Positions 4,816 through 30,245 of a stretch of DNA of 43,888 nucleotides are shown piece after piece. Numbering within the stretch: the first letter of the stretch is position 1; each line of letters begins with the position of its first letter. A program made the position numbers and the translations under genes. The DNA is from Candidatus Methylacidiphilales bacterium (GTDB taxonomy: Bacteria > Verrucomicrobiota > Verrucomicrobiia > Methylacidiphilales > JAAUTS01): assembly GCA_028713655.1 (NCBI GenBank), contig JAQTNW010000028.1, positions 1-43,888 of the forward strand, read 5' to 3'. The notes under the pieces were generated by a model that searched no databases, was not told where the DNA came from, and saw only the letters and a list, made by a program, of their open reading frames with translations.

Positions 4816-5043
4816 ATGGCAAGGGGCACATGCGAAATTGTCGTCATCTCTTTTATAGCCCTTACTTTTAGCATTCTACTAAACGCCATTGTGCTAATTC
4901 TTCATATGAAAAGGGAAGCAAGTCACAACGATGTCACGGCAAACAATAATGGTTTTAAAGAGCGGATGAGAGTGAATGACTGCGCATACGCGCGTTATTC
5001 TGAGTCAATATTTTGGATGCGCAGACATGTCACCCGTAGTTAA
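4816..5043 (+). CDS. possible small membrane protein
   Basis: This is a 75-codon frame from an ATG at 4816, the only plus-strand candidate in a 515-bp gap. It encodes one strongly hydrophobic segment (IVVISFIALTFSILLNAIVLIL) followed by a polar tail. A TATAAT hexamer lies 15 bp upstream, but there is no Shine-Dalgarno sequence. The base composition is lower in GC than the neighbours. It may be a real single-pass protein, a decayed gene, or chance. I recognise no family. Confidence 0.25.
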   Translation: MARGTCEIVVISFIALTFSILLNAIVLILHMKREASHNDVTANNNGFKERMRVNDCAYARYSESIFWMRRHVTRS

Positions 5044-5045
5044 AA

Positions 5046-5063
5046 GCGGCGTCATGCCGCCGC
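5046..5063. repeat. REP-like hairpin
   Basis: GCGGCG-TCATGC-CGCCGC forms a 6-bp GC stem, preceded by AAAA and followed by ACTCCAAA. It lies in the gap downstream of the histidine kinase gene. From memory, hairpins of this form with an ACTCCAA flank are common between genes in verrucomicrobial genomes. It could serve as a weak bidirectional terminator, but there is no T-tract in the minus-strand direction. Confidence 0.5.
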
Positions 5064-5153
5064 ACTCCAAATTCGCCATGTGGTGATGACGCGAGCGCGG
5101 TTCGCATTACAACCCTTGCGCCTTGGCGTTAAATCCTTACAGGAGGCCTAACA

Positions 5154-6560
5154 TCAAACAGCCAACGGCAGCCGCACGCTGAAGATCGAGCCCTGGTTGG
5201 TGTGACTTTCCACATCCACCGTCCCGTTGTGGGCCGTGACAACAGCCTTCACCAGGCTGAGCCCGAGCCCAAGCCCGCGCTTGCTGCGGCTGCTGTCGCC
5301 CCGGTAGAGCCGGTCCCAGATCTTGGGCAAGTCATGCCCGGAAATGCCCGCACCCTGGTCCGTCACGCGTAAAAGGCCATGGCTCCCCTCCCGGGAAATC
5401 CGCATCGTAATGACGGATTCGGAAGGGCTGTATTTCAACGCATTGTCCACAAGATTGCCGATCACCTGTTCGAGTCGAACCGAGTCGGCCAAAACCGATA
5501 CGGGTTCGCTTTCCTCGATCTGAAGCCGGATTTGTTTTTCCTCGGAGGTGAATTCGTAGAGTTCCATTACCCGGCGGCAGGCATCGGCGAGATTCACCGT
5601 CGTTTTGTTGAGCTTGAGGGCGCCGGCACCGGCTTCCATCACGTCCATGTTGGCTTCCAGCATTTTGAGGACGTAATCGGATTCTTCGAGGCAATCCGAA
5701 AGGCCTTCGCGCAGATCCTCGATGCTCCGGCCCCGATCCAGCGCCTGCTCGGCAGAATTGCGCAGCCGGGTCAGCGGGGTGCGCAAGTCATGCGCTGTGT
5801 TGTCCAGAGCCTCGCGCATGGCGCGGATCAATTTGGCATTTGTTTCCAGGAGCCGGTTGAACAGGGCGCTGAGATGGCCCAGCTCGGGATCGCTGGAGCG
5901 GACCGGCACCCGGGCCTCAAGATTGTTTTGCTCCAGCAATTTGTGAATCGTGCCGCTGAGGTCCCGCAGGGGGCGTGTGGTGTTATGGGTAATGAGGGCT
6001 CCACCCGCCAGCGCCAGCAGCACCAGCGGTGTGATCGTTATTAAAAAGATGGACTGCAGCTTGGCCAGGATGAGCAGCGACTCAGTCGAGTTTTTTCCAA
6101 CCTGAAGGATGATCCCCTGCCCGATCTGCCGGGTCACAACGGTCCAGCGGCTGGTTTTATCCCCCGCCGTTGCGGAAAAATCCATCACTTCATGCGTGGT
6201 ATCGAGACGCTGGATGACATCCGTGCCGGGCGCGGGCGAGCCGTCCGCCATGTTCCAGAATATGGTCTGGCCGGCCGGGGTGACGACGCGGATGAAGAAT
6301 GCCTCCGGGGTCCGATTGCGCTGCTCATCGAAGCGGGCTTTAAGGGCCGGCAGTCCGCCCTCCGGGAGCCAGGCCCGGTATTCCTGGGTGCGTGTTTCCA
6401 GAATCGTGACCTCGTGGTCGCGGACAAACCCTGACAACAAAAAATACGTCATGGCATATATGCCCAGGATGGTGGCGATGAAAAACACCGAATACCACAA
6501 GGTCAGGCGCAGGCTCAGGCCCAATCCCAACCAGGGCTGTAAAACGGATTTAGACGGCAT
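5154..6560 (-). CDS. membrane sensor histidine kinase
   Basis: This 468-residue protein has the classic layout. TM1 is at about residues 18-42, followed by a periplasmic sensor region to about 168, TM2 (SIFLITITPLVLLALAGGALI), and HAMP at about 192-245. The HisKA H-box has H257 in DNTAHDLRTPLTRLRN. The HATPase domain shows an N-box (NLVDNALKYSP, N373), G1 (DQGAGISG), an F-box region, and G2 (GLGLGLSLV). The ATG at 6560 follows the response-regulator stop by 3 bp, so the pair is translationally coupled. It lies downstream of a multiheme cytochrome cluster, so a role in sensing redox or electron acceptors is an inference from position only. Confidence 0.95.
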   Translation of the reverse strand: MPSKSVLQPWLGLGLSLRLTLWYSVFFIATILGIYAMTYFLLSGFVRDHEVTILETRTQEYRAWLPEGGLPALKARFDEQRNRTPEAFFIRVVTPAGQTIFWNMADGSPAPGTDVIQRLDTTHEVMDFSATAGDKTSRWTVVTRQIGQGIILQVGKNSTESLLILAKLQSIFLITITPLVLLALAGGALITHNTTRPLRDLSGTIHKLLEQNNLEARVPVRSSDPELGHLSALFNRLLETNAKLIRAMREALDNTAHDLRTPLTRLRNSAEQALDRGRSIEDLREGLSDCLEESDYVLKMLEANMDVMEAGAGALKLNKTTVNLADACRRVMELYEFTSEEKQIRLQIEESEPVSVLADSVRLEQVIGNLVDNALKYSPSESVITMRISREGSHGLLRVTDQGAGISGHDLPKIWDRLYRGDSSRSKRGLGLGLSLVKAVVTAHNGTVDVESHTNQGSIFSVRLPLAV

Positions 6561-6563
6561 GCC

Positions 6564-7241
6564 TCAGTATCCTTGTTTCAGAGTGTAGCCCATGCCCCGC
6601 ACGGTGTGGATCAATTTTAAGCCCGAATCGCGGTCGATCTTGTTTCGCAACCGGCATACCAACACGTCCACGACGTTGGTTTGCGGATCGAAATTATAAT
6701 CATAGACGTGTTCCAGGATGGAGGTTTTGGTCACAATCCGGCCCACGTTGCGCATCAGATATTCAAGCAGGGCAAATTCCTTGGCCTGCAACGGAATGGG
6801 CTTGCCGCCGCGCGCGGCTTCCCGTTTCAACAAATCCAGATTCAGGTCCCCGACCGACAGCACCTGCGATTCGGACAACCCGTTCGAACGCCGGAGCAGG
6901 GCGTGAATCCGTGCCATCAGTTCGGTAAAGGAAAAGGGCTTGGTCATATAATCGTCCCCGCCGGCCTGTAGGCCGCGCACCCGGTCATCGACCGTATGCC
7001 GTGCGCTCAAGATCAACACGGGAGTGCGGGAACGGGCGGCCCGGAGCCGTTCCAGAAGGGTAATGCCATCCATGCCGGGAAGCATGAGGTCCAGAACGGC
7101 GGCGTCATGTTGTCCGGTCAGGGCAAGATGCAGCCCTTCAATTCCATCCTTGGCCAGGTCCACGGTGAACCCGTTTTCTTTCAAGCCCCGTGCAATAAAG
7201 GAACTGATTTTTTTGTCGTCTTCAACAACCAGTATTTTCAT
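6564..7241 (-). CDS. OmpR/PhoB-type response regulator
   Basis: The 225-residue protein has a receiver domain with acidic D8/D9, phospho-acceptor D51 (AVLDLMLPGMDG), S79 and K101 (TKPF), and a C-terminal winged-helix domain (LLEYLMRNVGRIVTKTSILEHVY...TVRGMGY). It is the partner of the kinase that follows by 3 bp. MKILVVEDD at 7241 is the canonical start. That ATG is directly adjacent to the 27-bp terminal repeat of the transposase unit, with no ribosome-binding site visible in the repeat. An alternative in-frame TTG at 7256 overlaps the transposase stop codon (TTGA), which could allow coupled re-initiation. Its usual leader seems to have been replaced by the mobile element. Confidence 0.95.
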   Translation of the reverse strand: MKILVVEDDKKISSFIARGLKENGFTVDLAKDGIEGLHLALTGQHDAAVLDLMLPGMDGITLLERLRAARSRTPVLILSARHTVDDRVRGLQAGGDDYMTKPFSFTELMARIHALLRRSNGLSESQVLSVGDLNLDLLKREAARGGKPIPLQAKEFALLEYLMRNVGRIVTKTSILEHVYDYNFDPQTNVVDVLVCRLRNKIDRDSGLKLIHTVRGMGYTLKQGY

Positions 7242-7268
7242 AAAGGGGTCTGTCAACTATTCTTGACA
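7242..7268. repeat. 27-bp terminal inverted repeat, left copy (REP-like)
   Basis: This is an exact inverted copy of 8325-8351. It contains a GGGGTC head followed by the imperfectly closed palindrome TGTCAA-CTATTC-TTGACA. A short conserved head plus hairpin is the known architecture of REP sequences bounding tyrosine transposases. The transposase stop codon lies inside this copy. Confidence 0.9.
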
Positions 7269-8296
7269 AGCTTTTGCCATTGCTGGTGCATTTTGTCTGT
7301 GGGGATTTGCCCCAGCGTCAGCCTTCTCACCTGCTGGCAGACGTTCCCCGCGCTTTTCATCCATAGCCGTTCGGCTATCCACTTCTGCGACACGGTGGTT
7401 TTTTCTTTCAATGCGGCCGCAATCACCGCTTTCTCAGGCCTGCTTCCAGACGTGGATTTGAGGTCGTTTTCTTTCAGGCCAAACGCCTTCAACCCGCTCT
7501 CGATAAGTCCTTCGGCCAAGGCGCTGCTTTGTTCCCGCGTTTGTGGACTGCTGCGGTAATTGCGATTGGACCGCTGTTTCTTCGGATCCAGGAGTTTGAG
7601 CAGCTTTTCACGAAATTGCTGCCCGCCCCAATACCAACCCCTCTGCAAGGTGCTATTTAGGGTCTGCCCATCCAATGTTTGTCCCTGCTCGGACAAGCCG
7701 ATAGCTTCCAGGCGTTTCACGTAATCGTGTCTTCCGGAAGCGGAATCCTTGGTGTTGGCCAAACTAAAACCCAGTTCCGTTTCAAGCCAGTCGGGTCTGA
7801 CTCCCGGCACACAGCCATAGCCTTGGGTAAGACTGCTCCAATAATATCCCAACAGGCCCTTGCCCGTTTGTGGATTCACCAATCCAGCCCTCAGGGGGTT
7901 GAGATGAACATAGTCGATGAGAAGAGCCAGATACGCAATGGCGCTTGTGCCGGCAGCGCGTTTTCTGCCTGCTTCAACCACAATGGCTTTGTAGCGTCCT
8001 CCAAACACATGGCCCCATAGGTGATGACGGCAATTCAGCCGACGGGTGTACGTGTTTTGGAACCATTTCATGCCCGCCACCAGGTTGGGTTCCGGTGTTT
8101 GCAGAACCATGTGGTAATGGTTGGACATCAAGACCCACGCATGTACGCGCCAGCCGGTCTTGTCACAGGCTTCACCCAAAGTGCGCAGGAAGAGTTCCCG
8201 GTCCTGTTTGTCTTCCACGATATCCTCACGGCGGTCTCCCCGGGCCATGACGTGGTAGAAAGCCCCGCCATATTCAATCCGCAGTTGCCGTGCCAT
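7253..8296 (-). CDS. REP-associated tyrosine transposase (RAYT, Y1_Tnp family)
   Basis: The N-terminal domain of this 347-residue protein has the RAYT pattern: MARQLRIEYGGAFYHVMARG, the metal-binding HUH motif H60-Y61-H62 in MSNHYHMVLQTPEPNL, and the catalytic tyrosine Y83 in NTYTRRLN, followed by GHVFGGRYKA. These enzymes cut and join single-stranded DNA at REP hairpins. The protein is much longer than minimal RAYTs (about 150-220 residues). Its C-terminal ~170 residues are Lys/Arg-rich and end in a likely helix-turn-helix (VSQKWIAERLWMKSAGNVCQQVRRL). A GGATAGG-like ribosome-binding site precedes the ATG. The frame is intact, so the enzyme is probably active. Confidence 0.93.
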   Translation of the reverse strand: MARQLRIEYGGAFYHVMARGDRREDIVEDKQDRELFLRTLGEACDKTGWRVHAWVLMSNHYHMVLQTPEPNLVAGMKWFQNTYTRRLNCRHHLWGHVFGGRYKAIVVEAGRKRAAGTSAIAYLALLIDYVHLNPLRAGLVNPQTGKGLLGYYWSSLTQGYGCVPGVRPDWLETELGFSLANTKDSASGRHDYVKRLEAIGLSEQGQTLDGQTLNSTLQRGWYWGGQQFREKLLKLLDPKKQRSNRNYRSSPQTREQSSALAEGLIESGLKAFGLKENDLKSTSGSRPEKAVIAAALKEKTTVSQKWIAERLWMKSAGNVCQQVRRLTLGQIPTDKMHQQWQKLVKNS

Positions 8297-8324
8297 CGGC
8301 CTATCCTGCCATCCGCTCAGCTCC

Positions 8325-8351
8325 TGTCAAGAATAGTTGACAGACCCCTTT
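8325..8351. repeat. 27-bp terminal inverted repeat, right copy (REP-like)
   Basis: This is the exact reverse complement of 7242-7268 and sits 28 bp upstream of the transposase ATG and 3 bp beyond the cytochrome stop codon (8355-8357). The match ends abruptly on both sides. Confidence 0.9.
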
Positions 8352-8354
8352 TAC

Positions 8355-9836
8355 TCAAAGCGTGCCGTCGTGGCAGTCGCTGCACTTGGAACCCGCATCC
8401 AGCTCGCCACCCGGATGCGCGAACTTTACGCCCTGCGAATCCAGCTTGTCCAATTCGGGCCCGCTGCCCTGGCCCATGATAATATGGCAGGCGGTGCAAT
8501 CGCTGGCTTTGACCGTCGATTTACCGTCTGTGGCCTTGTGCTCGCCGTCGTGGCAGCGGAAGCAACCGTTCCATTCCTTGTGCCCAATGTTGTCAGGATG
8601 CACCCGCCAGTCCGCTTTCATCTCGGGGAAAAAATTCAACCGATAAATCTCCTGGGTCTGGCCAATAATGGCCCCCACGTCACTGCGATTGGGATAGGCC
8701 GAACGCAAAGCGGCGTCGATCTTTTTCAAAGCCTCCTCCTTGGTCGCATACGGCTGGACCAGGGCGGCCACCATTTTGGATTTGACCCAGGGAATCGCGG
8801 CATCCACATACCCCTCCGCCAGCGCATGGTCCACCGCATCGTTCGGGGTGCGGAATTTGTGCGAGGGCCGGTTGTGGCAATCCATGCAGTCCATCTGATG
8901 GATGGTGTACTTGGAGGGATCGTCCTTGAAATCCGGTGTGCGGTATTCGGTCACCACACCGTTGGAGTCGGTCATCCGGATCCATGGAATGATGCTGCGC
9001 AATTCGTCCTTGGCGATGTATTCAACCTTGCTGCCGGTGTTCATGTGCCAATGAATGCCGCCCGGCTGTCCTTGCAGCGGATTGCCACGGCCAACCCGCA
9101 ACAGCAGTTTGACAGTGAAAGGGGTGTTCTTTTCATCCGTCAGGAAATGGCGGTTCACTTTTTCCAGATCGCCGGTGACCTTGTTGGGCCAGTGGCAGGT
9201 CTCACAGGTTTCCTGGGCAGGCCGTTGCTTGGCCGCCGTCAGCCGTATCGGACGGTCGAAGTCATTTAGAACGGTATGATACAACTGGCGCGTACCATTG
9301 ACCTTGGTCCTGAAATAAGCCACGGCCCCGGGCCCCACATGGCAGGCCACGCAATCCACCCTCGCGTGCGGTGAATGCTGGGCGGTGATGAATTCCGGTT
9401 CCATGGGAACATGGCAGGCCTGGCCGCAAAATTGCACCGACTCGGTATAATGATAGGTCTGGTAGCTGCCCAGCGCTGTCATGAAAAGAAACAACACGGC
9501 AGCGGCCGCAAATGCGCCCAGGATTTTCCGGTCGCGCGGGCGGTTGAGGTCGATGGTAAGAGCCAGCGACGGCGCGGCGGCCCCGGCCAGGCGTAGCTGA
9601 CGCAGTTGAAACCAATACCCGGCCGCAACCAGACCCAGGCCGAGGAAAAGAAATCCTGGGGCAACCACATAGGCCAGAATGCCCATGTAGGGGTTGCCGT
9701 GATGCGCGAGAAGATCAACGACAAAGAGCAGAATGAACGCAAAGCAACTGGCGACAGCCAGGATGGCGCCCGCAAGGCTCAGCCAGTTTTTAAACAGGCC
9801 CGGCAATGAGAACCGCCGCTGGGATGTTTCACTCAT
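8355..9836 (-). CDS. NapC/NirT-type membrane seven-heme cytochrome c
   Basis: The 493 residues include three N-terminal hydrophobic segments (about 18-45, 49-75 and 104-127). A periplasmic domain follows with seven haem-binding motifs: CGQACH (C137/C141), CVACH (C162), CETCH (C211), CMDCH (C317), CFRCH (C425), CTACH (C447) and CSDCH (C485). The first has three residues between the cysteines instead of two and is followed by VPME, as in the NapC/NrfH first-haem region. Members of this family take electrons from the quinol pool and pass them to periplasmic partners. In this cluster it is the likely inner-membrane entry point to the porin-cytochrome conduit. The start is the ATG at 9836. Confidence 0.9.
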   Translation of the reverse strand: MSETSQRRFSLPGLFKNWLSLAGAILAVASCFAFILLFVVDLLAHHGNPYMGILAYVVAPGFLFLGLGLVAAGYWFQLRQLRLAGAAAPSLALTIDLNRPRDRKILGAFAAAAVLFLFMTALGSYQTYHYTESVQFCGQACHVPMEPEFITAQHSPHARVDCVACHVGPGAVAYFRTKVNGTRQLYHTVLNDFDRPIRLTAAKQRPAQETCETCHWPNKVTGDLEKVNRHFLTDEKNTPFTVKLLLRVGRGNPLQGQPGGIHWHMNTGSKVEYIAKDELRSIIPWIRMTDSNGVVTEYRTPDFKDDPSKYTIHQMDCMDCHNRPSHKFRTPNDAVDHALAEGYVDAAIPWVKSKMVAALVQPYATKEEALKKIDAALRSAYPNRSDVGAIIGQTQEIYRLNFFPEMKADWRVHPDNIGHKEWNGCFRCHDGEHKATDGKSTVKASDCTACHIIMGQGSGPELDKLDSQGVKFAHPGGELDAGSKCSDCHDGTL

Positions 9837-9861
9837 TTCGGTTCCAGTGTCGGAATAAGGA

Positions 9862-9890
9862 ATGCAGCCCGATCTTCAGTCGGGCTGCAT
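9862..9890. terminator. 11-bp perfect hairpin between two cytochrome genes
   Basis: ATGCAGCCCGA and TCGGGCTGCAT pair perfectly around a 7-base loop, 12 bp after the monoheme cytochrome stop and 26 bp before the seven-heme cytochrome start. It is not followed by a T-tract on the minus strand. It is therefore more likely an mRNA-stabilising or processing element, or a partial attenuator setting different expression levels, than a full intrinsic terminator. Confidence 0.55.
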
Positions 9891-9902
9891 AAACAAAACG
9901 TC

Positions 9903-10223
9903 TTATTTCTTGAAGGTGCGGATATGGGCGATCACAGCCTTGATGTCGTCAGCGCTCAATTTGTCTTTGAACGCCTTCATCTTATCCTTGCCATCCTGGA
10001 TCACCTTGGTGGCTGTGGCGTCGTCCAAGGCGGCCTGCACTCCGGCATCCTGGTAGTTTTTGAGCCCGAACTTTTTGCCCATGGGCGTGTTGCCGCTGCC
10101 GTCCTTGCCGTGGCAGGAGGCGCAGTTGGCGTCATACAGGGCTTTGCCGTCGGCTGCATGGACTGCGGCGGCGCTCAGGATCATGCATGCGGTAATCAAC
10201 AGGATTTGGATTTTTGATTTCAT
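9903..10223 (-). CDS. small periplasmic monoheme cytochrome c
   Basis: This is a 106-residue class I cytochrome c. It has a signal peptide (MKSKIQILLITACMILSAAAVHA), a single CASCH motif (C34, C37, H38) followed by GKDGSGNTPMG, and a C-terminal helix ending DDIKAVIAHIRTFKK typical of cytochrome c553/c6-like proteins. An in-frame upstream extension to 10376 is open but lies antisense to the porin tail and has no sensible N-terminus. Its place between the porin and the seven-heme cytochrome genes suggests it shuttles electrons across the periplasm between inner-membrane and outer-membrane modules. Confidence 0.92.
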   Translation of the reverse strand: MKSKIQILLITACMILSAAAVHAADGKALYDANCASCHGKDGSGNTPMGKKFGLKNYQDAGVQAALDDATATKVIQDGKDKMKAFKDKLSADDIKAVIAHIRTFKK

Positions 10224-10290
10224 AGTTTGGATGGGAGATGATGCTCGATTTTTTGAGGTTATGCAAACCCAATTGGATAAACCGGGGATG

Positions 10291-12426
10291 CTAAAATCTG
10301 ACCTCGGTGCTGGCATAAACCATATGCCCGTTGTAATCATTCTGGCCGCCGTACGTATCGTCACTGTAGCAGTCATAGGCGTATTTCAGTGTGCAACGCA
10401 CCATGTCGCTCAATTGCCGGCTGATGCTGGCGGAGAGCGTGTGTTCCTCGGAGTCAGTTCCATACGGCATGCCAACTGCGGCATTATTCTGGTAATCCTC
10501 GGCGCGGTAGTAGGTGTATTCGGCTTTGATGTCGGTTTTGTCATCCAAAGCCAGCCCGCTCGCAAAGTTCAGCGTCCAATAATTGTCCCTCGCATCCTGG
10601 ATGATGTTAGGCGACACATTGTCGGTGGCGGGTGTGTGGATCTTGTTCAACACATAAGACCCGCCGCCCTGAATATACATCCGGCTGAACGGATTCCAGG
10701 TGATGGTCTCACTGAAAATGTGGTTGGTCTGCAGGGAGGCCAAACCATACTGGAAATTTGTGCCGACTCCGGAACCCCCATGCCACTGGGAATAAATGCT
10801 GGAATACTGGAAGTCATAACGGCTCACCAATGAAAGATTGCCCAGAGGGCGCCAGGTTGCCCGGACATTCAGATCATCCGTGTTGAATTTTAATTTCATC
10901 ATCCGCTGGTTGTCGGCCGTCGTGTCCATGCGGTTGAAGATGTTTTTGGATTCCTCGATCTTATGATAGTACTGGGCCGCGAAATTCAGGTTCGACAACG
11001 CATACCAATTGGCCCCCACCGTGTATTTCTGCCTGAGAGCGGGTGTATTGACGTCGTAATTCAGAAAGCCGGTCGTGCTGTAGGCGGTATTGCTGTTGTC
11101 TGACCGGTTGTAATTTTCCTCCTCCCAGTCGCCTCGGGCGTAAAAAACCCAGTCATTGATGCCGCTATAACGCGCTTCCAGGCTTTCCGTCACGTTCAAC
11201 AATTCCTCGCCACTGAGGAGGTGTACGCGATTGTTGGCCGGCTGCGGTGAAGCCGTGGTCCGGACATAATCCACCGAATTGTCCGTCTTGCTGTCCTCGA
11301 TGCGCAGTTCGGGCGTGATGGTCAGCGAGTCCAGAGGCATCCACATGAGATTCAGGTTGGCCACATGCTGTTCCCCGGTCGCGCCGCCAGTAAGCCCGAC
11401 GAAACCGTTCCCCTGCCCGATGGCGGCAGTGCCTAACGGATTAAAAATGGCATTGTAGCCCTGCCCGTAAATACGACTGCCTCCGATCGCCGTGTCCAAT
11501 GTCGTATAGGAATAGCCGGTGCTGGCCCAGAATTTATCGCTGAAGCGCGTCACCGCTGATCCATGTCCGGTAAAAATGTCCGCCTTCAAATCGTCGTTCT
11601 GGGTCAGAAACGTGTTGTTGGCTTCGCCGGGATTGCGGCGCTCAAACAGGCCGTCTTTGTTGTTCGTGTGCTCGTAGCGCATGCCCAATCCCACCTCGGT
11701 ATTGCCATAGGTTTTCCTGGCATCCCCGGTAAAAATATCGCGCTGCTCATCAATGTCGCGGAACGCGGGCACAATCAGGCGGGAAGTCGCCAGCCCGGTC
11801 ATGGTCGTCGGGCCCCACAGTGTCGAGTCTTTCTGGCCGTCACGGTACTCGTGCTCATAGCGCAGGGTGATTTCCGGCAGGTTTTCAATCCTCAGCCCAA
11901 GTTCCACCCAGGCACTGCCGCGATCGAGCGCCAGTTGATTGTCATAAAGGTTGAAAAATCTGCCGTTGATCGGGAAAAAGCCGCCATGTCCGTCATACCA
12001 TGTGCGGAACTGGGTGAAACCGGCCTGGATATAACCCCAATCCGGATCCGAATACTGCAGTTTCAGCTTATAGTCGTTGTTATCCACAATGGCCCGGCCA
12101 TCCACACTGAACAGCCCCTTGGGTCCCACTGTTTGTTCAATGTGCAGGTCGTTGAGTCCGCCAAACACATCGCCGGCGCTATTGACGTTATGGTTATATT
12201 GGGCTCCATCTCCGTGGACAGCCTGCCCGCCAAACCCCACATCGATCCAATTGTTGTACGTGGGGGCCTCGGCCGGAGCTGCCTCCACGGGGGCCGCAGC
12301 CGTGCTGTCCGTCTTGGCGGCAGCCTCATCGGCGGCCTGCAATGAGTGACCAGTCCATATCAAACCGGCGCAAAGCAAAAGAGACTGGATGCTCGAACCG
12401 CATGTAAACCGAATGATGTTTTTCAT
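10291..12426 (-). CDS. MtrB/PioB-like outer-membrane beta-barrel porin
   Basis: The 711-residue protein has a signal peptide (ending near HSLQA) and an Ala/Pro-rich linker. The rest is an unbroken run of alternating aromatic/polar beta-strands, such as NLSLVSRYDFQYSSIYSQW and LTITPELRIEDS, ending in VYASTEVRF. A C-terminal Phe is the usual BamA recognition signal. Size and strand richness fit the 26-28-strand porins that sheath a periplasmic multiheme cytochrome in porin-cytochrome conduits. The gene lies 25 bp after the eight-heme cytochrome gene, the arrangement of mtrAB/pioAB. Identity to the family is by architecture and context; I see no signature such as the N-terminal CxxC of some MtrB proteins. 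Confidence 0.82.
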   Translation of the reverse strand: MKNIIRFTCGSSIQSLLLCAGLIWTGHSLQAADEAAAKTDSTAAAPVEAAPAEAPTYNNWIDVGFGGQAVHGDGAQYNHNVNSAGDVFGGLNDLHIEQTVGPKGLFSVDGRAIVDNNDYKLKLQYSDPDWGYIQAGFTQFRTWYDGHGGFFPINGRFFNLYDNQLALDRGSAWVELGLRIENLPEITLRYEHEYRDGQKDSTLWGPTTMTGLATSRLIVPAFRDIDEQRDIFTGDARKTYGNTEVGLGMRYEHTNNKDGLFERRNPGEANNTFLTQNDDLKADIFTGHGSAVTRFSDKFWASTGYSYTTLDTAIGGSRIYGQGYNAIFNPLGTAAIGQGNGFVGLTGGATGEQHVANLNLMWMPLDSLTITPELRIEDSKTDNSVDYVRTTASPQPANNRVHLLSGEELLNVTESLEARYSGINDWVFYARGDWEEENYNRSDNSNTAYSTTGFLNYDVNTPALRQKYTVGANWYALSNLNFAAQYYHKIEESKNIFNRMDTTADNQRMMKLKFNTDDLNVRATWRPLGNLSLVSRYDFQYSSIYSQWHGGSGVGTNFQYGLASLQTNHIFSETITWNPFSRMYIQGGGSYVLNKIHTPATDNVSPNIIQDARDNYWTLNFASGLALDDKTDIKAEYTYYRAEDYQNNAAVGMPYGTDSEEHTLSASISRQLSDMVRCTLKYAYDCYSDDTYGGQNDYNGHMVYASTEVRF

Positions 12427-12451
12427 AATGTGTGGCTTTCTCGTTTACTTT

Positions 12452-13276
12452 TTAATACCTAAAATGTGAGTTGACCTGGGAACCGTGCACCGCCTCATGG
12501 CAGCCGCTGGACCAACAAGTGCCCTGCAGCGCCCGTGCGTTATGGGTGCCACCCGTGCTGATGTTCAGCCCTCCCGGCGTGGTTTGCTGCTGGAAATGGC
12601 ACTTCAGGCAAAGCGTGTGGTTCCGCGCGACCAGTTGCTTCGGATTGACCGAACCATGCGGATCGTGGCAGGTCACACAACCCTCGCGAACCGCCTCATG
12701 CTCGAATACAAACGGCCCCTTTTGCGCCGTATGGCACTGGAAACAGGTTTCGTTTTTGCCCATGGGACTCGTGCCGCCGCCCTTGATCGCCCGGCCGCTG
12801 TGCGGGTTGTGGCAGTCGGTACAACTGATCCTGCCTTCCAGAACCGGATGATGGCTCGGGAGATTGAATTTCGCCTTGGTCTCCAGATGGCACTGAAAAC
12901 AGGTTTCAGGCGACTTGTGCGGATTGATGATGGTATGCGCCGCACCGCCGGAACTGACATGCTGGCTGCCGGGCCCGTGGCAGGATTCGCAACCCACGTT
13001 TTCGGCGTTTTTGCCCTTTGCCATCAAGCGGGCATGGTCGGCGGTCTTGAAATCCTTCGTGATAGGCTCGTGGCAATCCTCGCAGGCCTTGGAGCCGACG
13101 AAGGTTGCGCCCGGGATATTGGGGGGAATGACCAGTTCCTGGGAAGGCATGCCGCAGGAAGCCAGAATGACTATCAAACCAAAAGCGGCCCCCAGGATAC
13201 CGATTGATTTTCCGGGGCTGTTGCGCAGTCGTTGGGCCAGGGTGCGGCATCGGGCCAGTAAAGTATGCCTGTTCAT
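12452..13276 (-). CDS. eight-heme c-type cytochrome lipoprotein (MtrA/DmsE/PioA-like)
   Basis: A hydrophobic N-terminus with lipobox ILASC (C41) marks a lipoprotein of 274 residues. Haem motifs are at C65 (CEDCH), C96 (CESCH), C126 (CFQCH), C152 (CTDCH), C178 (CFQCH), C200 (CVTCH) and C223 (CLKCH). An unusual CWSSGCH (C254/C259, four residues between cysteines) precedes the end motif EAVHGSQVNSHFRY. That makes eight probable haems against ten in MtrA/DmsE. Spaced CHxPH/CHGPG segments match this superfamily. As the first gene before the porin, it is the likely cytochrome that threads the barrel. AAGGAAGG is a strong ribosome-binding site before the ATG. Confidence 0.9.
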   Translation of the reverse strand: MNRHTLLARCRTLAQRLRNSPGKSIGILGAAFGLIVILASCGMPSQELVIPPNIPGATFVGSKACEDCHEPITKDFKTADHARLMAKGKNAENVGCESCHGPGSQHVSSGGAAHTIINPHKSPETCFQCHLETKAKFNLPSHHPVLEGRISCTDCHNPHSGRAIKGGGTSPMGKNETCFQCHTAQKGPFVFEHEAVREGCVTCHDPHGSVNPKQLVARNHTLCLKCHFQQQTTPGGLNISTGGTHNARALQGTCWSSGCHEAVHGSQVNSHFRY

Positions 13277-13662
13277 TGTTATTGCGTCCTTCCTTGTTTT
13301 CTTCCGGTGAGCATCCCGGACTTACCGGGCTGATTCCATCCTTGAGTAGCCTGACTCATACAATCCTTGGTTTTTCTAACAAACATATAAGCATGAAGTT
13401 TTGAAGTTGAGTTAGCCTTACCTTTAACTCCGCTAATGGAAGCACGGGGCAGTGCAGATAGAAATAAGAAAAATTACAATTACCATTTTATAAGGAATCT
13501 TACTAGCGCTGCATTATAAGTAATGATTGAGCTGGGTTTTAGCGCCATTTGTTGAGAATTGATCTCAACAACTAACCCGAATGTTCCAAACATTTCTGAA
13601 AACCCCCGCAAAGTGTCCAGCCGCCAAAGCAAGGCAGGAACAGGTGCCCAGCGACATCCGAG
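13277..13662. promoter_or_regulatory. 386-bp regulatory gap upstream of the cytochrome-porin operon, with two palindromes
   Basis: The gap separates ccsA from the first cytochrome gene and is markedly AT-rich (13380-13560), so it should hold the operon promoter. Two palindromes stand out: GTTGAGA-ATTGA-TCTCAAC at 13551-13569 and AATGTT-CCA-AACATT at 13580-13594. Either could be an operator, for example for the response regulator downstream, or part of a transcription stop for the ccs operon. No T-tract follows them in the minus direction and no convincing sigma-70 or sigma-54 core was found. Confidence 0.45.
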
Positions 13663-15516
13663 TTAAGACTGAGTCGCAGTCTTGAAACTCCGCCACTGCG
13701 TCTGCGGTATCAACGCAATCCCCATCAATGCCAACTGGCTTATGACAAAGCCAAGCAGCCACGGGAAAGCCTTCTCCATGAACCCATAAGAGTGCAAGCC
13801 CACCCCCAGCATGTTCACCCCAAACCATGAAAAACTCGTGATCACATTCCCAAAGAGCGCCATGACCACCAAGCCCCGCTGCCGGATATACCCACCCCAA
13901 CGCGCATGCAAAATCAGCGCGCACCACAGCACAATCAGCAGCGCCCCGTTTTCCTTCGCGTCCCAGCCCCAGAACCGGCCCCAGGATTGGTCCGCCCAGA
14001 TGCCGCCCAGAACCGTACCCACAAAGCTGAACAGCGTCGCAAAACAAATCACGCCATAAATCATCCGGGCCAGGGCTTGCGCCGACTGCTGGTTCAGCGA
14101 ACGGGTGAACACACCGCGCACCACATAAAAGATAGCCAGCACCCCGGCAAAAAACATCGCGGAATAGCCCGTCGTGATCGCCACCACATGGGTCGCCAGC
14201 CAGATATTGGTATCGAGCACGGCCTGCATCATTTCAAGCGTGTCACCACTGCCGGCGAGATTGTGCGCGATGACCAGCGTGATGAAACCAATCACAGCAG
14301 CGCAGGCGGCGCCGATGCCGTCGCGGAAAATCCGCTCCAGAATAAGCCCAATAATGACAGTGCCCCAACCAATGAAAACCGCCGAGGAATACAGATTGGT
14401 GACCGGCGGACGTTCCTGCAGATACATGCGGCTGAACAAGCCGAACGTGTGCACCGCCAGCGCAAGCAGCAGCACATAAAAGGCCGAGCGGTTCAGACAT
14501 TGAGTCCAGAAAATCCACGAAGCACACACCAAAAGAAACACCAGCACATACAGCCCCATGGCCTGGTAAAAAGGTTCCAGCCAGTTGAATGTAAACTCAT
14601 ACGCCGTGCGGCTTGTTGCCTGCGGCTCGTTCTTAGCCATCCAGCCGCCAAGATCCTGCACGTGCCGGTTGAACAACGCTGGATCGTTCTTTCGATAAGC
14701 GTCGCCAATCAGCGCATAGGCCTTCACGACGGGATTGACCCCGCCTGCGGAGGCCGCATTCAAGAGGCTCTGGCCCATCGACATCCAATCGCCGTGCAAT
14801 CCCGTCCCTGCCTGTGCCGGTGGAATGGAAAGTATATACGCCATTTCAGCCAATGTCGTGTAGCGGTCGGAAAACTGCTGAAACATATCCAGCTTTCCCT
14901 TGTCAAATTTCCCGCCCTTTTCGTGCGCATGTGCGGCATCACGCCCTGCTTGAAAGATTTGCGCATAGGCATCGATTTCATTCGCAAAATCCTCCGCGTC
15001 ATCCGGCTGCAGGCTGTTTTTAAGCCGCTGATAGAGCACCAGGGAATTGCGCAGGTTTAAAATGGCCGTCTGATAGGGCGAGCGCTGGACCGCCTCCATG
15101 TCCTCCGCCCGCGTTCCCTGCTCATCAATTTTCTTCAGGAACGGCGTGATCTCCACATAACTGAAATATTTCTTCTCGCCCTGCTCCCAGCCGAAGAGGC
15201 CGAATACATCCGGATTGTGGATGGCGAATACCGGATATTTGTCCGCCACCGGCGCGTTGAACAACATATCCGCCAGCCAGCGTGACGCCTCAAGCTGGCG
15301 CCCGTCTTCCAGGCGGAGGGTTTGACGGCCATGAATGATGACCAGCGAATTGCGCGCAACCGTATCGATAGGCTTGACCCGGCCGCCAACCAGCACCGGC
15401 AGCTTTCCGAACGACGCCATGTCAAAACCATCGGATCCTGTTTGGGGCGGGCGTGAATTCGAGGCCAGCCAGAGTGCGGCAAGCCCCAGGGCAATCCAGG
15501 GAATATAACGTTTCAT
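13663..15516 (-). CDS. ccsA: System II cytochrome c synthase subunit CcsA (N-terminally extended)
   Basis: The C-terminal half is a polytopic membrane domain with the tryptophan-rich WWD haem-handling motif at about residues 506-521 (IWADQSWGRFWGWDAK) and flanking histidines (VVAITTGYSAM region, GVGLHSYGF). CcsA with ResB/CcsB exports haem and attaches it to CxxCH apocytochromes. The 617 residues are about twice a minimal CcsA. The first ~310 form a mostly soluble region behind a signal-anchor (FGKLPVLVGGRVKPIDTVARN), an extension seen in fused or elongated forms in other Gram-negative phyla. The ATG overlaps the resB stop (ATGA), so the two are coupled. Confidence 0.93.
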   Translation of the reverse strand: MKRYIPWIALGLAALWLASNSRPPQTGSDGFDMASFGKLPVLVGGRVKPIDTVARNSLVIIHGRQTLRLEDGRQLEASRWLADMLFNAPVADKYPVFAIHNPDVFGLFGWEQGEKKYFSYVEITPFLKKIDEQGTRAEDMEAVQRSPYQTAILNLRNSLVLYQRLKNSLQPDDAEDFANEIDAYAQIFQAGRDAAHAHEKGGKFDKGKLDMFQQFSDRYTTLAEMAYILSIPPAQAGTGLHGDWMSMGQSLLNAASAGGVNPVVKAYALIGDAYRKNDPALFNRHVQDLGGWMAKNEPQATSRTAYEFTFNWLEPFYQAMGLYVLVFLLVCASWIFWTQCLNRSAFYVLLLALAVHTFGLFSRMYLQERPPVTNLYSSAVFIGWGTVIIGLILERIFRDGIGAACAAVIGFITLVIAHNLAGSGDTLEMMQAVLDTNIWLATHVVAITTGYSAMFFAGVLAIFYVVRGVFTRSLNQQSAQALARMIYGVICFATLFSFVGTVLGGIWADQSWGRFWGWDAKENGALLIVLWCALILHARWGGYIRQRGLVVMALFGNVITSFSWFGVNMLGVGLHSYGFMEKAFPWLLGFVISQLALMGIALIPQTQWRSFKTATQS

Positions 15517-16685
15517 GATGCGGGCTTTCTCCGGCGTAAAAATGACGTCAGATGGAAGGAAAACTGGACCAGCAGCCCCGCCGCCACGATAACGCAGGCG
15601 GCGTACGGCGCGATAATGCCGGGATTGTGCACCACCTCGAGAACCGTGGCCTTGTCGCTTTTGTCAAATCCCGACTGGTAATAGGTTTCGCCGCGATAAC
15701 GCAACGGATGATTCATGTAAATCAGCACATTGCGGTTTTCCTTGTGATCAGGATCCGTCAGCGTGACACGACTGGCGAAATTCTTGGGAATTTCCGTTCC
15801 CGGATACCGCTCATGGGTGAATTTCTGCAGCGTCATGCTGTAATGCTTGTAGTAACGCACCGGGCGCAATTCCAGGCGCCACTGTTTGCCCGAGTAGAAA
15901 AATTCCTGCGGAGCTCCCAAACCGTCCGAAACCAGCCACGTGCCGAGCGAACCGGCTGTAATTTCATTTTCGGATGGAAGAGGTTCAATCTCAATGACGA
16001 CGCTCACCGTGTCGTGCCCGTTCGGCGTGGTGTCCCGCCGAGCTTCCGTCACGACAACACGCGAGCCGACGCCTTGTGTGGCAGCCGCTTGGGCGTTGGC
16101 CCCTGCTTTGCTCAACATTCCGACTTGGGAGTTAGGATAAAACCGCCGAACCAGGATCCGAAACGGCAGGCCGCTGTGCTCAATGGTCCCGCCGCGCTGA
16201 AGCCGCGCTTGTGGTATCGCCGTGACCTGGTCCAGATCGCTGTCGCTTTCATCAATCACCGCCAGTTCCGTCAACCGCAGGTCTTCCGAGTAATTCTTTG
16301 TTTCGCCTATCTCCAACCGCATGTAACTGTCCACCGAAAATAGATCGGTAAGAAGTCCGCCCAGAAGCATGATGATCAAACCCGCGTGAATAAGCTGAAT
16401 GCCGAATTTGCGCCAGGTCCATTGGAAGCGGCGGATGTGGGCGGTGATCAGGTTGGCCAGCAGCACGGCGCCAATCAGATGCCCGCCCGGGTAGATGGGG
16501 ATTTTAAATCCATTCGAATTGGGCGGCCACCAGACAAACAGGCTCTGAAAGTACAGTTGCTGCACCTCGTGGATGCCCAGATGCACCTGCGCAATCGTGC
16601 CCGCAAAAACCAGCACAATCGCCGCCGCGAGGCAGGCAATGGTCAGTTTCAACGACGAAACGAAATCAAAGATAAGGCGCAACAT
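15513..16685 (-). CDS. resB: ResB/CcsB cytochrome c biogenesis protein
   Basis: This 390-residue membrane protein has hydrophobic segments near residues 11-32, 68-88 and 94-115, a large periplasmic domain, and a last TM (GIIAPYAACVIVAAGLLVQF). The segment VFAGTIAQVHLGI and the periplasmic PLRYRGETYYQSGFDKSD (equivalent to the ResB YQSGY-like motif) are characteristic. It is the partner of CcsA, stabilising apocytochrome and haem during ligation. It precedes ccsA with a 4-bp overlap. Its location directly upstream of a multiheme cytochrome operon suggests dedicated maturation capacity. Confidence 0.92.
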   Translation of the reverse strand: MLRLIFDFVSSLKLTIACLAAAIVLVFAGTIAQVHLGIHEVQQLYFQSLFVWWPPNSNGFKIPIYPGGHLIGAVLLANLITAHIRRFQWTWRKFGIQLIHAGLIIMLLGGLLTDLFSVDSYMRLEIGETKNYSEDLRLTELAVIDESDSDLDQVTAIPQARLQRGGTIEHSGLPFRILVRRFYPNSQVGMLSKAGANAQAAATQGVGSRVVVTEARRDTTPNGHDTVSVVIEIEPLPSENEITAGSLGTWLVSDGLGAPQEFFYSGKQWRLELRPVRYYKHYSMTLQKFTHERYPGTEIPKNFASRVTLTDPDHKENRNVLIYMNHPLRYRGETYYQSGFDKSDKATVLEVVHNPGIIAPYAACVIVAAGLLVQFSFHLTSFLRRRKPAS

Positions 16686-16702
16686 GAAAGGCAGGGATGC
16701 GG

Positions 16703-17341
16703 TCAGGGACCGAATTCAACCGATTGGAGAAATTTTAAAAATCTGGCTTTTTCGCCCGCAACCAAATGATCGGGCCCGTTCAGCTTGAAAAACCAGGCGC
16801 TGCCTTCATGCCGCGTCCACGCCGCCAGAATGCGCGACTTGGCCCCCGGCATATCGACGGTCAAAATCTCGCCGCCCTTTGCCTTCACCGGGACGATCAA
16901 CGATTTCAATTCCGGCTCTCCAACCGGCTCCAAACCGGCCTGCCCGCGCCAGCGGTTCACGTTTTCAAGATCGCCACCCGCTTCACCGGGAAGGGTCACA
17001 ATCGAAATGTCGCCTGTTTCACCGTTCTGCCCGGCAACTGAAAAGCTCGCATAGCGCATGGAGGAAGCCGGGACCGACTTCCAGCCGTCCGGAACCTTCC
17101 ACTTGATTTGCGGCTTTTGAGAATCGGCTGCGCCCGCACCGCTGGCCTGCGCCTGCGGAGGCATCGGAGCCGCAGGCGGCATTTCGGGGGACGGAGCGGT
17201 TTCGGGTGTTTGGGCAGCGGCGGCTTCTGGCGGAGCCTTGGAGACGCGATAGACTTGGATCTCTTCCTTGTGATTGCAGCCACACAGTAATGTCAAAACT
17301 GCGGCTGTGCCAAAAAATAAAAGGGCGCGGGAGGATTTCAT
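16703..17341 (-). CDS. probable lipoprotein linked to cytochrome maturation genes
   Basis: The 212-residue product starts MKSSRALLFFGTAAVLTLLCGC, a lipoprotein signal peptide with lipobox LLCGC. Then comes a Pro/Ala-rich linker (about 35-80) and a globular domain with IKWKVPDGWKSVP, DISIVTLPGEAGG, NVNRWRGQAGL and AAWTRHEGSAWFFKLNGPDHLV. The ATG at 17341 is chosen because earlier in-frame codons give a polar leader. It is the first gene of the lipoprotein-resB-ccsA unit, 17 bp before resB. The globular part, with a WxVPxGW pattern, resembles conserved lipoproteins of unknown role. I cannot assign a function. Confidence 0.8.
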   Translation of the reverse strand: MKSSRALLFFGTAAVLTLLCGCNHKEEIQVYRVSKAPPEAAAAQTPETAPSPEMPPAAPMPPQAQASGAGAADSQKPQIKWKVPDGWKSVPASSMRYASFSVAGQNGETGDISIVTLPGEAGGDLENVNRWRGQAGLEPVGEPELKSLIVPVKAKGGEILTVDMPGAKSRILAAWTRHEGSAWFFKLNGPDHLVAGEKARFLKFLQSVEFGP

Positions 17342-17437
17342 TTCGAGACGGTCATCTATAGACCTCAGGCATGACTGAGTCAACCGGCAAGACTTGGGGG
17401 TATGCGCAGGATTAAATATACCCTTCCATAGGATTGC

Positions 17438-18484
17438 CTAAAAGCTTGGTAATGTTTTCTTGGTTCGGAATCTTGAGAGTGCAGAGCAATCCACAAGCCG
17501 ATCTAGTGTTTTAGGCGTAAAGATTTTTCCTTTCGCGTGGAAAATCATTTGTCGCATGTCCTCACGGCGGACACCAAAACCTCGTCCAGCCAAACAAGCA
17601 ATCACCTCGTAGCCACCTTTCCCAGAGCGTTCTCGCTCTGCTGACATCTGGCAGAGCCGGATAACCCGTGTTGCCTTGTCTCTTGCTGTTCCATCGTCTT
17701 CGGTTAGTTTGGCTTCGATGATAACCTGCGGTTGAAACTCGTCGGGGATAATGAAGTCGGGGGCTTGGTCAAAACCCACAAGCCGCTCAGCCCGTTTGGT
17801 CTTGCGGAACGTGATACCAGCCCGGCTCAACTGCTCCTCAATCGCCGATTCAAGTCCGTCACCAACCAGCTCACTGACAGAATCACGATGCCCTGCGAAA
17901 GACCTGCCCAAAAAACGTTCATAAAGCAGCATGGCGTAGGGCGCACCAAGATCGGCCAACTGCTTGACAGACGACAACCCCTCCAAGCTATCGGCCTTGC
18001 TAAATCGGTGCAGCTTGTCGGCAGCAACAGTTGGGCATCCCTCTTCAATCAAGTCACACGCTGTCTCTACCAGTGCCGTGATCCGTGTGAGTGTTGTTGC
18101 ACCCGGTTTCAGTGAACGGTCGGGGTGTACACGAATGTCCCGGTCCAAAGTACGTGCCGCTCCCTGTGGAATTTCCACACCTTTTCGACTGGATGCCAAG
18201 TAGGCCCATTCCGGTGGCGTGAAACCAAGAATGGCCCGCAACACGATGAGAGTAACAGGCGTCTGAAGCGCCGCGCCTAGAATCGCTGGATATTCAAATC
18301 GCGTGAATCCATCTGAGATTTTCTTGAGCGCTTCATACCCAGCGGCAAAAACTGGGTAATCCAGAAAACCATCTCCTTTCGGCATGATGAGAAACTCAGA
18401 AGCAAGGTTTGAAAAAACCGCATCGACAAAAGATTCAGGTGCAGCCAGCACCTCGTCTGGACTAGCTTCAAAAGGGAATTTCAT
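17438..18484 (-). CDS. PD-(D/E)XK nuclease-like protein, partner of the adjacent methyltransferase
   Basis: This is a 348-residue protein. The C-terminal part has a PD-(D/E)XK core: E213 in DGLESAIEEQL, D243 in FDQAPDFIIPDEF, and E257-A258-K259 in QVIIEAKLTEDDG, followed by RVIRLCQMSAERERSGKGGYEVIACLAGRGF. This is the restriction-endonuclease-like fold. The N-terminal ~200 residues are helical and unassigned; they could recognise DNA. Start choice is between ATG 18487 and 18484; a GGAG lies 7 bases from the second. It overlaps the methyltransferase end by 17 bp, so the two are translated together. A restriction function is inferred from the fold and the partner. Confidence 0.8.
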   Translation of the reverse strand: MKFPFEASPDEVLAAPESFVDAVFSNLASEFLIMPKGDGFLDYPVFAAGYEALKKISDGFTRFEYPAILGAALQTPVTLIVLRAILGFTPPEWAYLASSRKGVEIPQGAARTLDRDIRVHPDRSLKPGATTLTRITALVETACDLIEEGCPTVAADKLHRFSKADSLEGLSSVKQLADLGAPYAMLLYERFLGRSFAGHRDSVSELVGDGLESAIEEQLSRAGITFRKTKRAERLVGFDQAPDFIIPDEFQPQVIIEAKLTEDDGTARDKATRVIRLCQMSAERERSGKGGYEVIACLAGRGFGVRREDMRQMIFHAKGKIFTPKTLDRLVDCSALSRFRTKKTLPSF

Positions 18485-29170: not shown

Positions 29171-30245
29171 TCTGGACCTCCTCGGCCACCCTGCGGGCCG
29201 CATGAGGCGGATTCAGAAAACCCGCCTTCCCCGCCAGTTTCTCCAGCAGATTGCGGTTATTGAATAAAAGACAGGCTTCCTCGGCAAGCCGGCGTTCCGA
29301 TCCATTGCCCTCGTGCACAACCCTTGCTGCTCCGGCATCCGAGTAAATGGAGGCATTTTTCGACTGGTGATCCTCGGCCGCATGGGGGTAGGGAACCAGG
29401 ATTGAAGCCAGCCCAAAAAGGCTGATTTCTGCAAGCGAGGCCGCGCCCGAGCGTCCGATCACCAGATCCGCCGCACTGTATAAATTTTCCATCACGGAGC
29501 AAAACGGCAACACCGATGCCTCCAGGCTGTTGCGCCGATAATTGGCCTGCAACAACTCACATTCCTGCGGCCCGGTCAAATGGATGAATTGCACACGGTC
29601 CCGCAAATCTTCCCAGTAGGGCATCGCAAGAATCACCAGGCGATTCAAACCCTGCGCACCCTGGCTGCCCCCGATAATCCCGATGGTGAATTTACCCGGG
29701 TCCAAATCCCAGAAGGATGCGGCAGCCTTCCGCTCCACTCGCCGCAGAGAACTGCGCACAGGCGTTCCTGTCAGGACGGTCCTGCCTTCAGGAAGCCAGT
29801 CCCCGCATTCCGCAAAGCCCAACAAAACTTTGCCCGCCTTGCTGGAAAGCCAGCGCGTCACCTTGCCCGGTATGGCATTGGATTCATGAAGCAGGGTCGG
29901 GACCTTTGAACGCGAGGCGCTGAGGATCAGCGGCGCGCTGGTGAATCCGCCCATTCCAAGCACGGCCGCCAATTTCTCATTGCGAATTTCGGATGACGAC
30001 AACCGACAGGCTTCAAAAAATTTGGCGCCAAAGCGGAATATTTTCAAGCCGAGGCCCGGCCAGCCTATTGTCGGCAGCGGCACGCTTGGAAATTCCGGAT
30101 TGCGCGAAAGGATCTTGCGGTCGATGTCCTTCATCGAAACATACAACCGCACCTCGTGCCCCATGCCGGCCAGGATTTCCGCGACCGCCAGGCCGGGATA
30201 CAGGTGGCCTCCGGTCCCGCCGCATGCGATGCCAATTCTTGCCAT
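29160..30245 (-). CDS. murG: UDP-GlcNAc:lipid I transferase MurG
   Basis: MurG converts lipid I to lipid II on the cytoplasmic face of the membrane. The 361-residue product begins MARIGIACGGTGGHLYPGLA with the G-loop GGTGGH (9-14). It has the second Gly-rich loop GIIGGSQGAQGLN and the nucleotide-sugar-binding region DLVIGRSGAASLAEISLFGLASILVPYPHAAEDHQ. ATG 30245 gives the standard N-terminus; upstream in-frame codons overlap ftsW. It is coupled to ftsW (5 bp) upstream and to murCB (overlap) downstream. Confidence 0.96.
   Translation of the reverse strand: MARIGIACGGTGGHLYPGLAVAEILAGMGHEVRLYVSMKDIDRKILSRNPEFPSVPLPTIGWPGLGLKIFRFGAKFFEACRLSSSEIRNEKLAAVLGMGGFTSAPLILSASRSKVPTLLHESNAIPGKVTRWLSSKAGKVLLGFAECGDWLPEGRTVLTGTPVRSSLRRVERKAAASFWDLDPGKFTIGIIGGSQGAQGLNRLVILAMPYWEDLRDRVQFIHLTGPQECELLQANYRRNSLEASVLPFCSVMENLYSAADLVIGRSGAASLAEISLFGLASILVPYPHAAEDHQSKNASIYSDAGAARVVHEGNGSERRLAEEACLLFNNRNLLEKLAGKAGFLNPPHAARRVAEEVQNVL

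Follow-up and report, generated by a model that had tools for sequence, protein, structure and literature searches.

What does the group of cytochrome and porin genes on the minus strand of contig JAQTNW010000028.1 do for its host, a Candidatus Methylacidiphilales bacterium (assembly GCA_028713655.1)? The window, i.e. the whole stretch of 43,888 nucleotides that was analyzed, is the whole of this contig (C28), and the draft genome amounts to 3.29 Mb in 90 contigs, with a completeness of 95.45%. An initial annotation, made from the sequence alone, had read the region as a complete quinol-to-surface path for electrons in a probable verrucomicrobial genome; the phylum is indeed Verrucomicrobiota. 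Our results point to a cluster that belongs to the MtrAB superfamily of porin-cytochrome conduits, as suggested by the homology of its octaheme cytochrome to MtrA and by an adjacent barrel predicted to have the 26-strand MtrB fold, and that probably carries electrons outward, from menaquinol to an acceptor outside the cell.

In order of transcription the minus strand encodes a lipoprotein, ResB, CcsA, the octaheme cytochrome, the barrel, a monoheme cytochrome, a heptaheme cytochrome, a transposase, a response regulator and a histidine kinase. The identities initially given to the octaheme lipoprotein, the 711-residue barrel, the monoheme cytochrome, the NapC/NirT-like heptaheme protein and the two-component pair are confirmed by open reading frames (ORFs), Pfam profiles and heme motifs. 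The four genes that would form the electron path are:

12452..13276, minus strand: octaheme MtrA-like lipoprotein, 274 amino acids (aa), seven CXXCH and one CX4CH motif, lipobox LASC with Cys41
10291..12426, minus strand: MtrB-like outer-membrane beta-barrel, 711 aa, predicted fold, best solved match 6r2q_B
9903..10223, minus strand: monoheme class I-type cytochrome c, 106 aa with an inferred start, PF13442 above cut-off, one CXXCH
8355..9836, minus strand: putative ImcH-type heptaheme inner-membrane quinol cytochrome, 493 aa, one CX3CH and six CXXCH, PF03264 above cut-off

The monoheme ORF as listed reaches 10376 and overlaps the barrel gene, the start used here being an inferred internal ATG.

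The octaheme protein matches MtrA (6r2q_A) with a phmmer E-value of 1.2e-30. Its lipobox Cys, its eight heme motifs and eight further His are invariant in all 17 aligned homologues, and eight bis-histidine hemes would be expected from these additional His. We do not count it as a member of the DmsE or GSU2203 decaheme families, since it has eight motifs and scores below both cut-offs (162.1 of 192.2 bits for TIGR03508, DmsE family, and 187.5 of 325 bits for NF041028, GSU2203 family). Aligned with its decaheme kin, hemes 1-2 correspond to decaheme 1-2 and hemes 3-8 to decaheme 5-10, the stretch bearing decaheme hemes 3-4 being absent; as the strong stretch of the phmmer comparison (96 bits) also pairs hemes 3-8 with MtrA 5-10, the missing pair would be decaheme 3-4. 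The heme count of eight, initially taken as a mark that sets this cluster apart from the well-studied conduits, is not a distinguishing one, eight being the count given for verrucomicrobial clusters in the available text of PMC5615132.

That DmsE and GSU2203 are the nearest decaheme models for the octaheme protein brings up a DmsEF-like module, in which electrons from the conduit would pass to a molybdoenzyme at the surface for the reduction of soluble substrates, e.g. dimethyl sulfoxide (DMSO) or iodate, and the genome does hold four PF00384 matches. However, none of the four proteins is a DMSO-type reductase by an above-cut-off model: a pair on C7 lies with an assimilatory NirA-family gene, the one on C42 belongs to the FdhF/YdeP family (above cut-off) and the one on C4 is NuoG-like. 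The cluster region itself contains no molybdoenzyme gene, and we consider such a module improbable.

Concerning the barrel, the initial annotation had proposed a profile search against MtrB/PioB models. For the window barrel itself this gave nothing, there being no Pfam or NCBIfam match, PF11854 (MtrB_PioB) included, but fold and profile comparison do tie it to MtrB. The model predicted from 30 sequences (predicted local distance difference test, pLDDT, 83.5; predicted template modelling score, pTM, 0.79) has 26 long strands by our own count. Foldseek places MtrB (6r2q_B) at the top of the solved structures (E 1.1e-13, template modelling (TM) score 0.62), the other 49 rows listed reaching at most 0.47, and VIA-align superposes the two with Z 22.1 over 567 residues at 3.8 Å, its runners-up being at Z 17.2 (293 residues, 10.3 Å) and then 15.7. 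With hhalign, the barrel family profile aligns to 18 barrels encoded directly downstream of decaheme genes (E 2.7e-34, 614 columns), one of which (L182) matches MtrB_PioB with E 1.7e-73; of four further decaheme-linked barrels that were scanned, L188 alone matches this profile. The link to MtrB is thus drawn from the fold and profile comparisons and not from the sequences of solved structures, against which the barrel profile gave two chance-level matches only.

Could the barrel be an unrelated porin, of TonB or carbohydrate type, that lies beside the cytochrome gene by chance? The lack of any Pfam or NCBIfam match would fit, as would the Z of 14-16 reached by many TonB-type barrels. However, MtrB is clearly the top of the structure matches, adjacency to the octaheme gene is conserved (see below), and the family has a profile link to MtrB_PioB-type barrels, with 2 of its 30 members matching PF11854 (best E 2e-7). 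A chance neighbour is therefore extremely unlikely, and the conduit reading survives this test, MtrB being the best solved match.

Conservation was assessed in three samples: 387 genomes of the phylum, where a strong octaheme match means E < 1e-50 and a full-length ImcH-type match E < 1e-100; a barrel-found set, with matches in 22 other genomes, of which 20 loci (at most 20 kb each) were examined, G059 and G277 being left out as weak and without a strong octaheme match; and an octaheme-found set, made up of the best 80 of 312 relatives. A gene order that is not conserved, named in the initial annotation as an outcome against its reading, did not occur: in 20/20 barrel-found relatives the barrel gene is preceded by the octaheme gene on its own strand, with a spacing of -150 to 300 bp in 19 of them (in L048 the ORFs overlap by 304 bp, probably because of an over-long start). 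Among the octaheme-found loci, a barrel homologue lies directly downstream in 34/37, those of L125 and L144 being cut by the contig end. The exceptions are L147, with 215 bases left to the contig end, L145, where barrel matches are split in two ORFs, and L154, with a 724-aa ORF that does not match the window barrel. Immediately downstream of the decaheme gene, 37/39 loci carry an ORF of 450 aa or more; the two others are close to contig ends. Across the phylum, strong octaheme matches are found in 21/387 genomes, every one of which also has a barrel match; another two genomes match the barrel alone, and more weakly.

How far does the eight-heme pattern extend? Among the best 80 of 312 relatives, 36 loci show seven CXXCH plus one CX4CH, 39 are decaheme, four have other counts (one partial), and one, L154 (Luteolibacter), is the sole locus with eight CXXCH. 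Judged by the titles of their records, all of the CX4CH loci are Verrucomicrobiota, except L172 (Omnitrophota) and L148 ('bacterium'). In the cytochrome tree, from which L157 (partial) was left out and where L178, L184 and L186 (22, 11 and 9 motifs) were classed as 'other', the window and the 36 CX4CH loci form one clade of 37 rows with support 100/99, a value that is retained without the columns of the missing hemes. The 'octaheme' state as such costs two changes on the tree, owing to L154; a single origin for all 38 rows (CX4CH clade plus L154) is not rejected (approximately unbiased test, p-AU 0.434), which is no demonstration of it. A lipobox pattern search, crude in that over-long starts are included, matched 31/37 CX4CH rows, 0/1 for L154 and 14/39 decaheme rows, so that a lipid anchor would be common in the CX4CH clade but not peculiar to it; L172 seems to be without one. 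In this last locus, from an Omnitrophota metagenome-assembled genome (MAG), the genes for the lipoprotein, ResB, CcsA, the octaheme protein, the barrel and the ImcH-type protein keep the window's order and all lie on one strand, which suggests transfer between phyla or an old linkage. In the same tree L169 falls among Acidobacteriota although its record is labelled as a Bordetella parapertussis MAG, a label that is probably wrong for this contig.

Where would the electrons enter? The hydropathy of the heptaheme protein reveals three N-terminal hydrophobic segments (25-43, 53-71 and 105-123). The hallmarks of ImcH are three N-terminal membrane segments, one CX3CH followed by CX2CH motifs, and a NapC/NirT-like part (PMC6295460, available text), and the protein shares them; it would thus be of ImcH type rather than CymA-like, an assignment made from the published description. 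The NapC-type quinol cytochrome of the inner membrane that had been proposed initially is thus supported by PF03264 and the membrane segments, and refined to the ImcH type. Across the phylum sample, a full-length ImcH-type match occurs in 19/21 conduit genomes versus 13/366 others (Fisher p 8.9e-22), and the gene lies within the stretch of 14/20 barrel-found loci. Matches with E < 1e-50 lie within the stretch of 9/37 octaheme and 4/39 decaheme loci, so the pairing of ImcH type and conduit is not limited to Verrucomicrobiota.

CbcL, another quinol cytochrome, was also considered: Pfam and NCBIfam scans find no cytochrome b domain in the window heptaheme protein, and a CbcL-type profile search of the window's genome has the octaheme gene as its sole match. 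Some relatives (L038-L043) do encode CbcL-type quinol cytochromes with 13, in some cases 11, hemes near the conduit, usually near an ImcH-type gene too. As candidates for MtrC-type proteins these were rejected, since L042 (13 hemes) and L039 (11 hemes) have a cytochrome b domain, PF01292, and are CbcL-type; five further 11- or 13-heme proteins of relatives were classed likewise by alignment.

Concerning the step between inner membrane and barrel, homologues of the monoheme cytochrome are present in 17/20 relative loci, directly after the barrel in six, and adjoin the ImcH-type gene in all 14 barrel-found relatives that have this gene in the stretch. In eight loci (L143, L144 and L148-L153) the barrel protein itself bears a CXXCH in its N-terminal part, and their stretches (under 5 kb in L144 and L149) contain no match to the window monoheme protein. 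This N-terminal region matches PSCyt1 in 5/5 scanned of the eight, which would make these loci a fused cytochrome-barrel form of the conduit. No ImcH-type match was found in the eight stretches either, so they may be fed differently. Since the monoheme gene adjoins the ImcH-type gene, and in view of the fused barrels, we place a monoheme step in the path, the window protein being a likely periplasmic carrier.

The proposed mechanism combines these elements. At the inner membrane the heptaheme protein of ImcH type would oxidize menaquinol, the monoheme cytochrome c would ferry the electrons across the periplasm, the lipid-anchored octaheme protein, seated in the 26-strand barrel, would conduct them to the surface, and an outside acceptor, e.g. 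humic quinones or Fe(III), would be reduced there. The homologies, the heme motifs, the predicted barrel fold and the conserved gene order are shown by the data, whereas we infer that the cytochrome sits in the barrel, and also how the carriers are ordered, which way the electrons run and what accepts them. Of the path proposed initially, an MtrAB-type conduit with a NapC-type quinol cytochrome is what stands, its direction, at first given as outward or the reverse, now being more probably outward.

This direction is favored because the genome yields no heme-copper oxidase, RuBisCO or CbcL-type match and because ImcH homologues are known so far only from Fe(III) reducers, according to the available text of PMC6295460. 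These are also the points that bear on an inward conduit, similar to MtoAB or PioAB, in which Fe(II) or some other external donor would supply electrons that pass via the barrel to the quinone pool. MtoAB and PioAB also operate without a surface multiheme cytochrome (PMC6344600, available text), and conduits of such kind can be reversible; on the other hand, a 95.45%-complete genome in which neither a heme-copper oxidase nor RuBisCO is matched, and an ImcH-type partner, tell against it. We judge the inward conduit unlikely, and Fe(II) oxidation less likely than the outward path.

Several observations weigh against the outward conduit, or against parts of it. The barrel and MtrB share no more than 11-12% identity. 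The predicted structure of the octaheme protein is poor (pLDDT 57) and was kept out of the fold searches, and a weak phmmer stretch (20 bits) would pair its hemes 3-4 with MtrA 3-4, residues 116-161 being used in both stretches. The Fisher statistic for ImcH type and conduit ignores kinship among genomes, and two genomes with the conduit, G166 and G126, lack a full-length ImcH-type match. One bd oxidase is encoded in the genome, and two molybdoenzymes lie with an assimilatory NirA-type gene, so there may be terminal paths besides the conduit. At the locus there is no MtrC-type surface cytochrome, no genome-wide TIGR03507 search having been made, and the heme-motif list of the genome shows no dense cluster among the first 100 of 295 places.

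The last heme of MtrA faces outside. As no MtrC has been seen here, the last, CX4CH-bound heme may face the surface and act as the terminal reductase. Extending this to the phylum, we tentatively advance a broader proposal, to which we give somewhat less than even chances: that the conduits of Verrucomicrobiota derive from one ancestral MtrA without decaheme pair 3-4, with a lipid-anchored eight-heme wire spanning a full 26-strand barrel, the CX4CH heme as a possible terminal reductase at the surface, an ImcH-type feed and, in one sub-branch, a periplasmic monoheme donor fused to the barrel, and that the conduit is a main respiratory exit in this genome, where no heme-copper oxidase was found.

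Upstream of the conduit genes lie:

13663..15516, minus strand: CcsA-type cytochrome c maturation protein, PF01578 above cut-off
15513..16685, minus strand: ResB-type cytochrome c maturation protein, PF05140 above cut-off
16703..17341, minus strand: unannotated lipoprotein, no Pfam match, marginal NCBIfam match, ORF to 17383 with a probable ATG at 17341

The conduit had been described as directly downstream of ResB/CcsA and as having its own maturation genes. It is indeed downstream on the same strand, but a gap of 386 bp separates the CcsA and octaheme genes. Since the CcsA profile has a single match in the window's genome (the search covered CcsA, not system I/Ccm), ResB/CcsA is more likely a general maturation system than one reserved to the conduit. 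The linkage does recur in relatives: among the 20 barrel-found loci ResB is present in eight, CcsA in five and the lipoprotein in nine. The family of this lipoprotein (16703-17341) is linked with ResB/CcsA, its versions in relatives being longer and without Pfam match.

Downstream of the heptaheme gene the cluster is followed by:

7253..8296, minus strand: Y1-type transposase, similar to those associated with repetitive extragenic palindromic (REP) elements, PF01797 above cut-off, NCBIfam REP-associated model below cut-off
6564..7241, minus strand: OmpR-type response regulator (CopR/CztR-like), PF00072 and PF00486, ORF to 7256 with a probable ATG at 7241
5154..6560, minus strand: sensor histidine kinase (CopS/CztS-like), PF02518, PF00512 and PF00672

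The transposase gene stands between the heptaheme and response regulator genes, so that, contrary to the initial annotation, the genes are not consecutive, and the sensor pair is hard to keep as a part of the conduit. No homologue of the response regulator or the kinase with E < 1e-40 is found in the 20 relative loci, the best match being a response regulator in L044 (E 2.2e-26), encoded some 8.7 kb away from the barrel. Given the intervening gene and this lack of homologues near the conduit, the two-component pair probably stands outside the conduit unit. So, probably, does the transposase gene, which has no homologue in any of the 20; no inverted repeats were found around it (6900-8600), and the window gives no indication of REP copies.

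The pair also underlies a further alternative, that the cluster, together with a sensor pair of heavy-metal type, serves detoxification or the response to metal stress and not respiration. Its nearest NCBIfam models, TIGR01387 for the response regulator and TIGR01386 for the kinase, both below cut-off, recall CopRS/CztRS, and pair and cluster share one strand. With a transposase gene between the two, and no relative (0/20) keeping such a pair near the conduit at E < 1e-40, this explanation is very unlikely.

Regarding transcription signals at 5000-17500, promoter-like sites are below the shuffle mean (4 versus 6.4) and terminator-like sites above it (23 versus 14.2, standard deviation 4.0), and no operon borders were drawn from either. 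At 9862-9890, a perfect hairpin of 11 pairs with a weak T tail separates the monoheme gene from the ImcH-type gene. It is not repeated elsewhere in the window and is perhaps a terminator or a processing site.

Elsewhere in the window, 17438-20669 holds two genes, a DUF1156-like one of DNA methylase type and, after it, one that matches nothing. The former has Pfam matches below cut-off and PADLOC matches to DUF1156_MTase and HmaB, and the two are a possible defence pair. A MurC-MurB fusion of 774 aa is encoded at 26879-29203, within a cell-division and wall gene cluster.

If the outward conduit is true, Verrucomicrobiota that live anaerobically in soils and lakes can respire onto humics or Fe(III), with consequences for carbon turnover in these habitats. 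The cluster would also be a naturally occurring variant in which the kind of barrel stays the same while the wire has two hemes fewer, which makes the number of hemes needed to cross the outer membrane testable. As an ImcH-type partner in the inner membrane and a carrier in the periplasm are named, the path becomes open to reconstruction and to knockouts.

How does the cluster compare with known systems? The conduit type formed by a porin and an eight-heme cytochrome is already known in this phylum, and the window cluster belongs to that kind. He et al. 2017 described verrucomicrobial porin plus eight-heme clusters, naming Opitutus terrae PB90-1, proposed electron export to humics and called the clusters not homologous to known conduits (PMC5615132, available text). 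The likeness lies in a porin beside a periplasmic eight-heme cytochrome, several of the published cases being without an extracellular one; the difference is that the same architecture, compared by description, is here tied to MtrA and MtrB. In the open-access literature searched, as far as its available text goes, the superfamily placement, the CX4CH clade and the ImcH-type partner were not met for verrucomicrobial clusters, nor were the loss of a heme pair and the fusion of monoheme cytochrome and barrel in that of PMC5615132, PMC6344600, PMC6295460, PMC12133095 and PMC10654088.

With Shewanella MtrAB (6R2Q), MtoAB and PioAB the cluster shares the MtrA homology, the MtrB fold, predicted here with 26 strands, and the adjacency of the genes. 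It differs from Shewanella MtrAB in having eight hemes and not ten, with decaheme 3-4 missing, a CX4CH as last motif, a lipobox, a putative ImcH-type partner in place of the usual CymA (PMC6295460, available text), and no MtrC seen at the locus. This last lack, initially regarded as another distinguishing mark, is shared by MtoAB and PioAB (PMC6344600, available text). The GSU2203/DmsE decaheme family offers the nearest NCBIfam models and its loci also have a downstream barrel, but its members have ten hemes, and the octaheme protein falls below both cut-offs. Geobacter OmaB/OmbB/OmcB, compared by description, similarly joins an octaheme periplasmic cytochrome to a porin, but is described as not homologous to MtrABC and has a 12-heme surface cytochrome (PMC6344600, available text). 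The heptaheme protein resembles Geobacter ImcH, again by description, in length, in its three N-terminal hydrophobic segments and in its one CX3CH and six CX2CH motifs; unlike the cases in the ImcH survey, whose available text has no mtrAB beside imcH (PMC6295460), an MtrAB-type pair adjoins the ImcH-type gene here. What the present analysis adds to the known verrucomicrobial type is its placement within the MtrAB superfamily, the absence of one heme pair, the single CX4CH clade, the putative ImcH-type partner and the apparent fused monoheme-barrel form.

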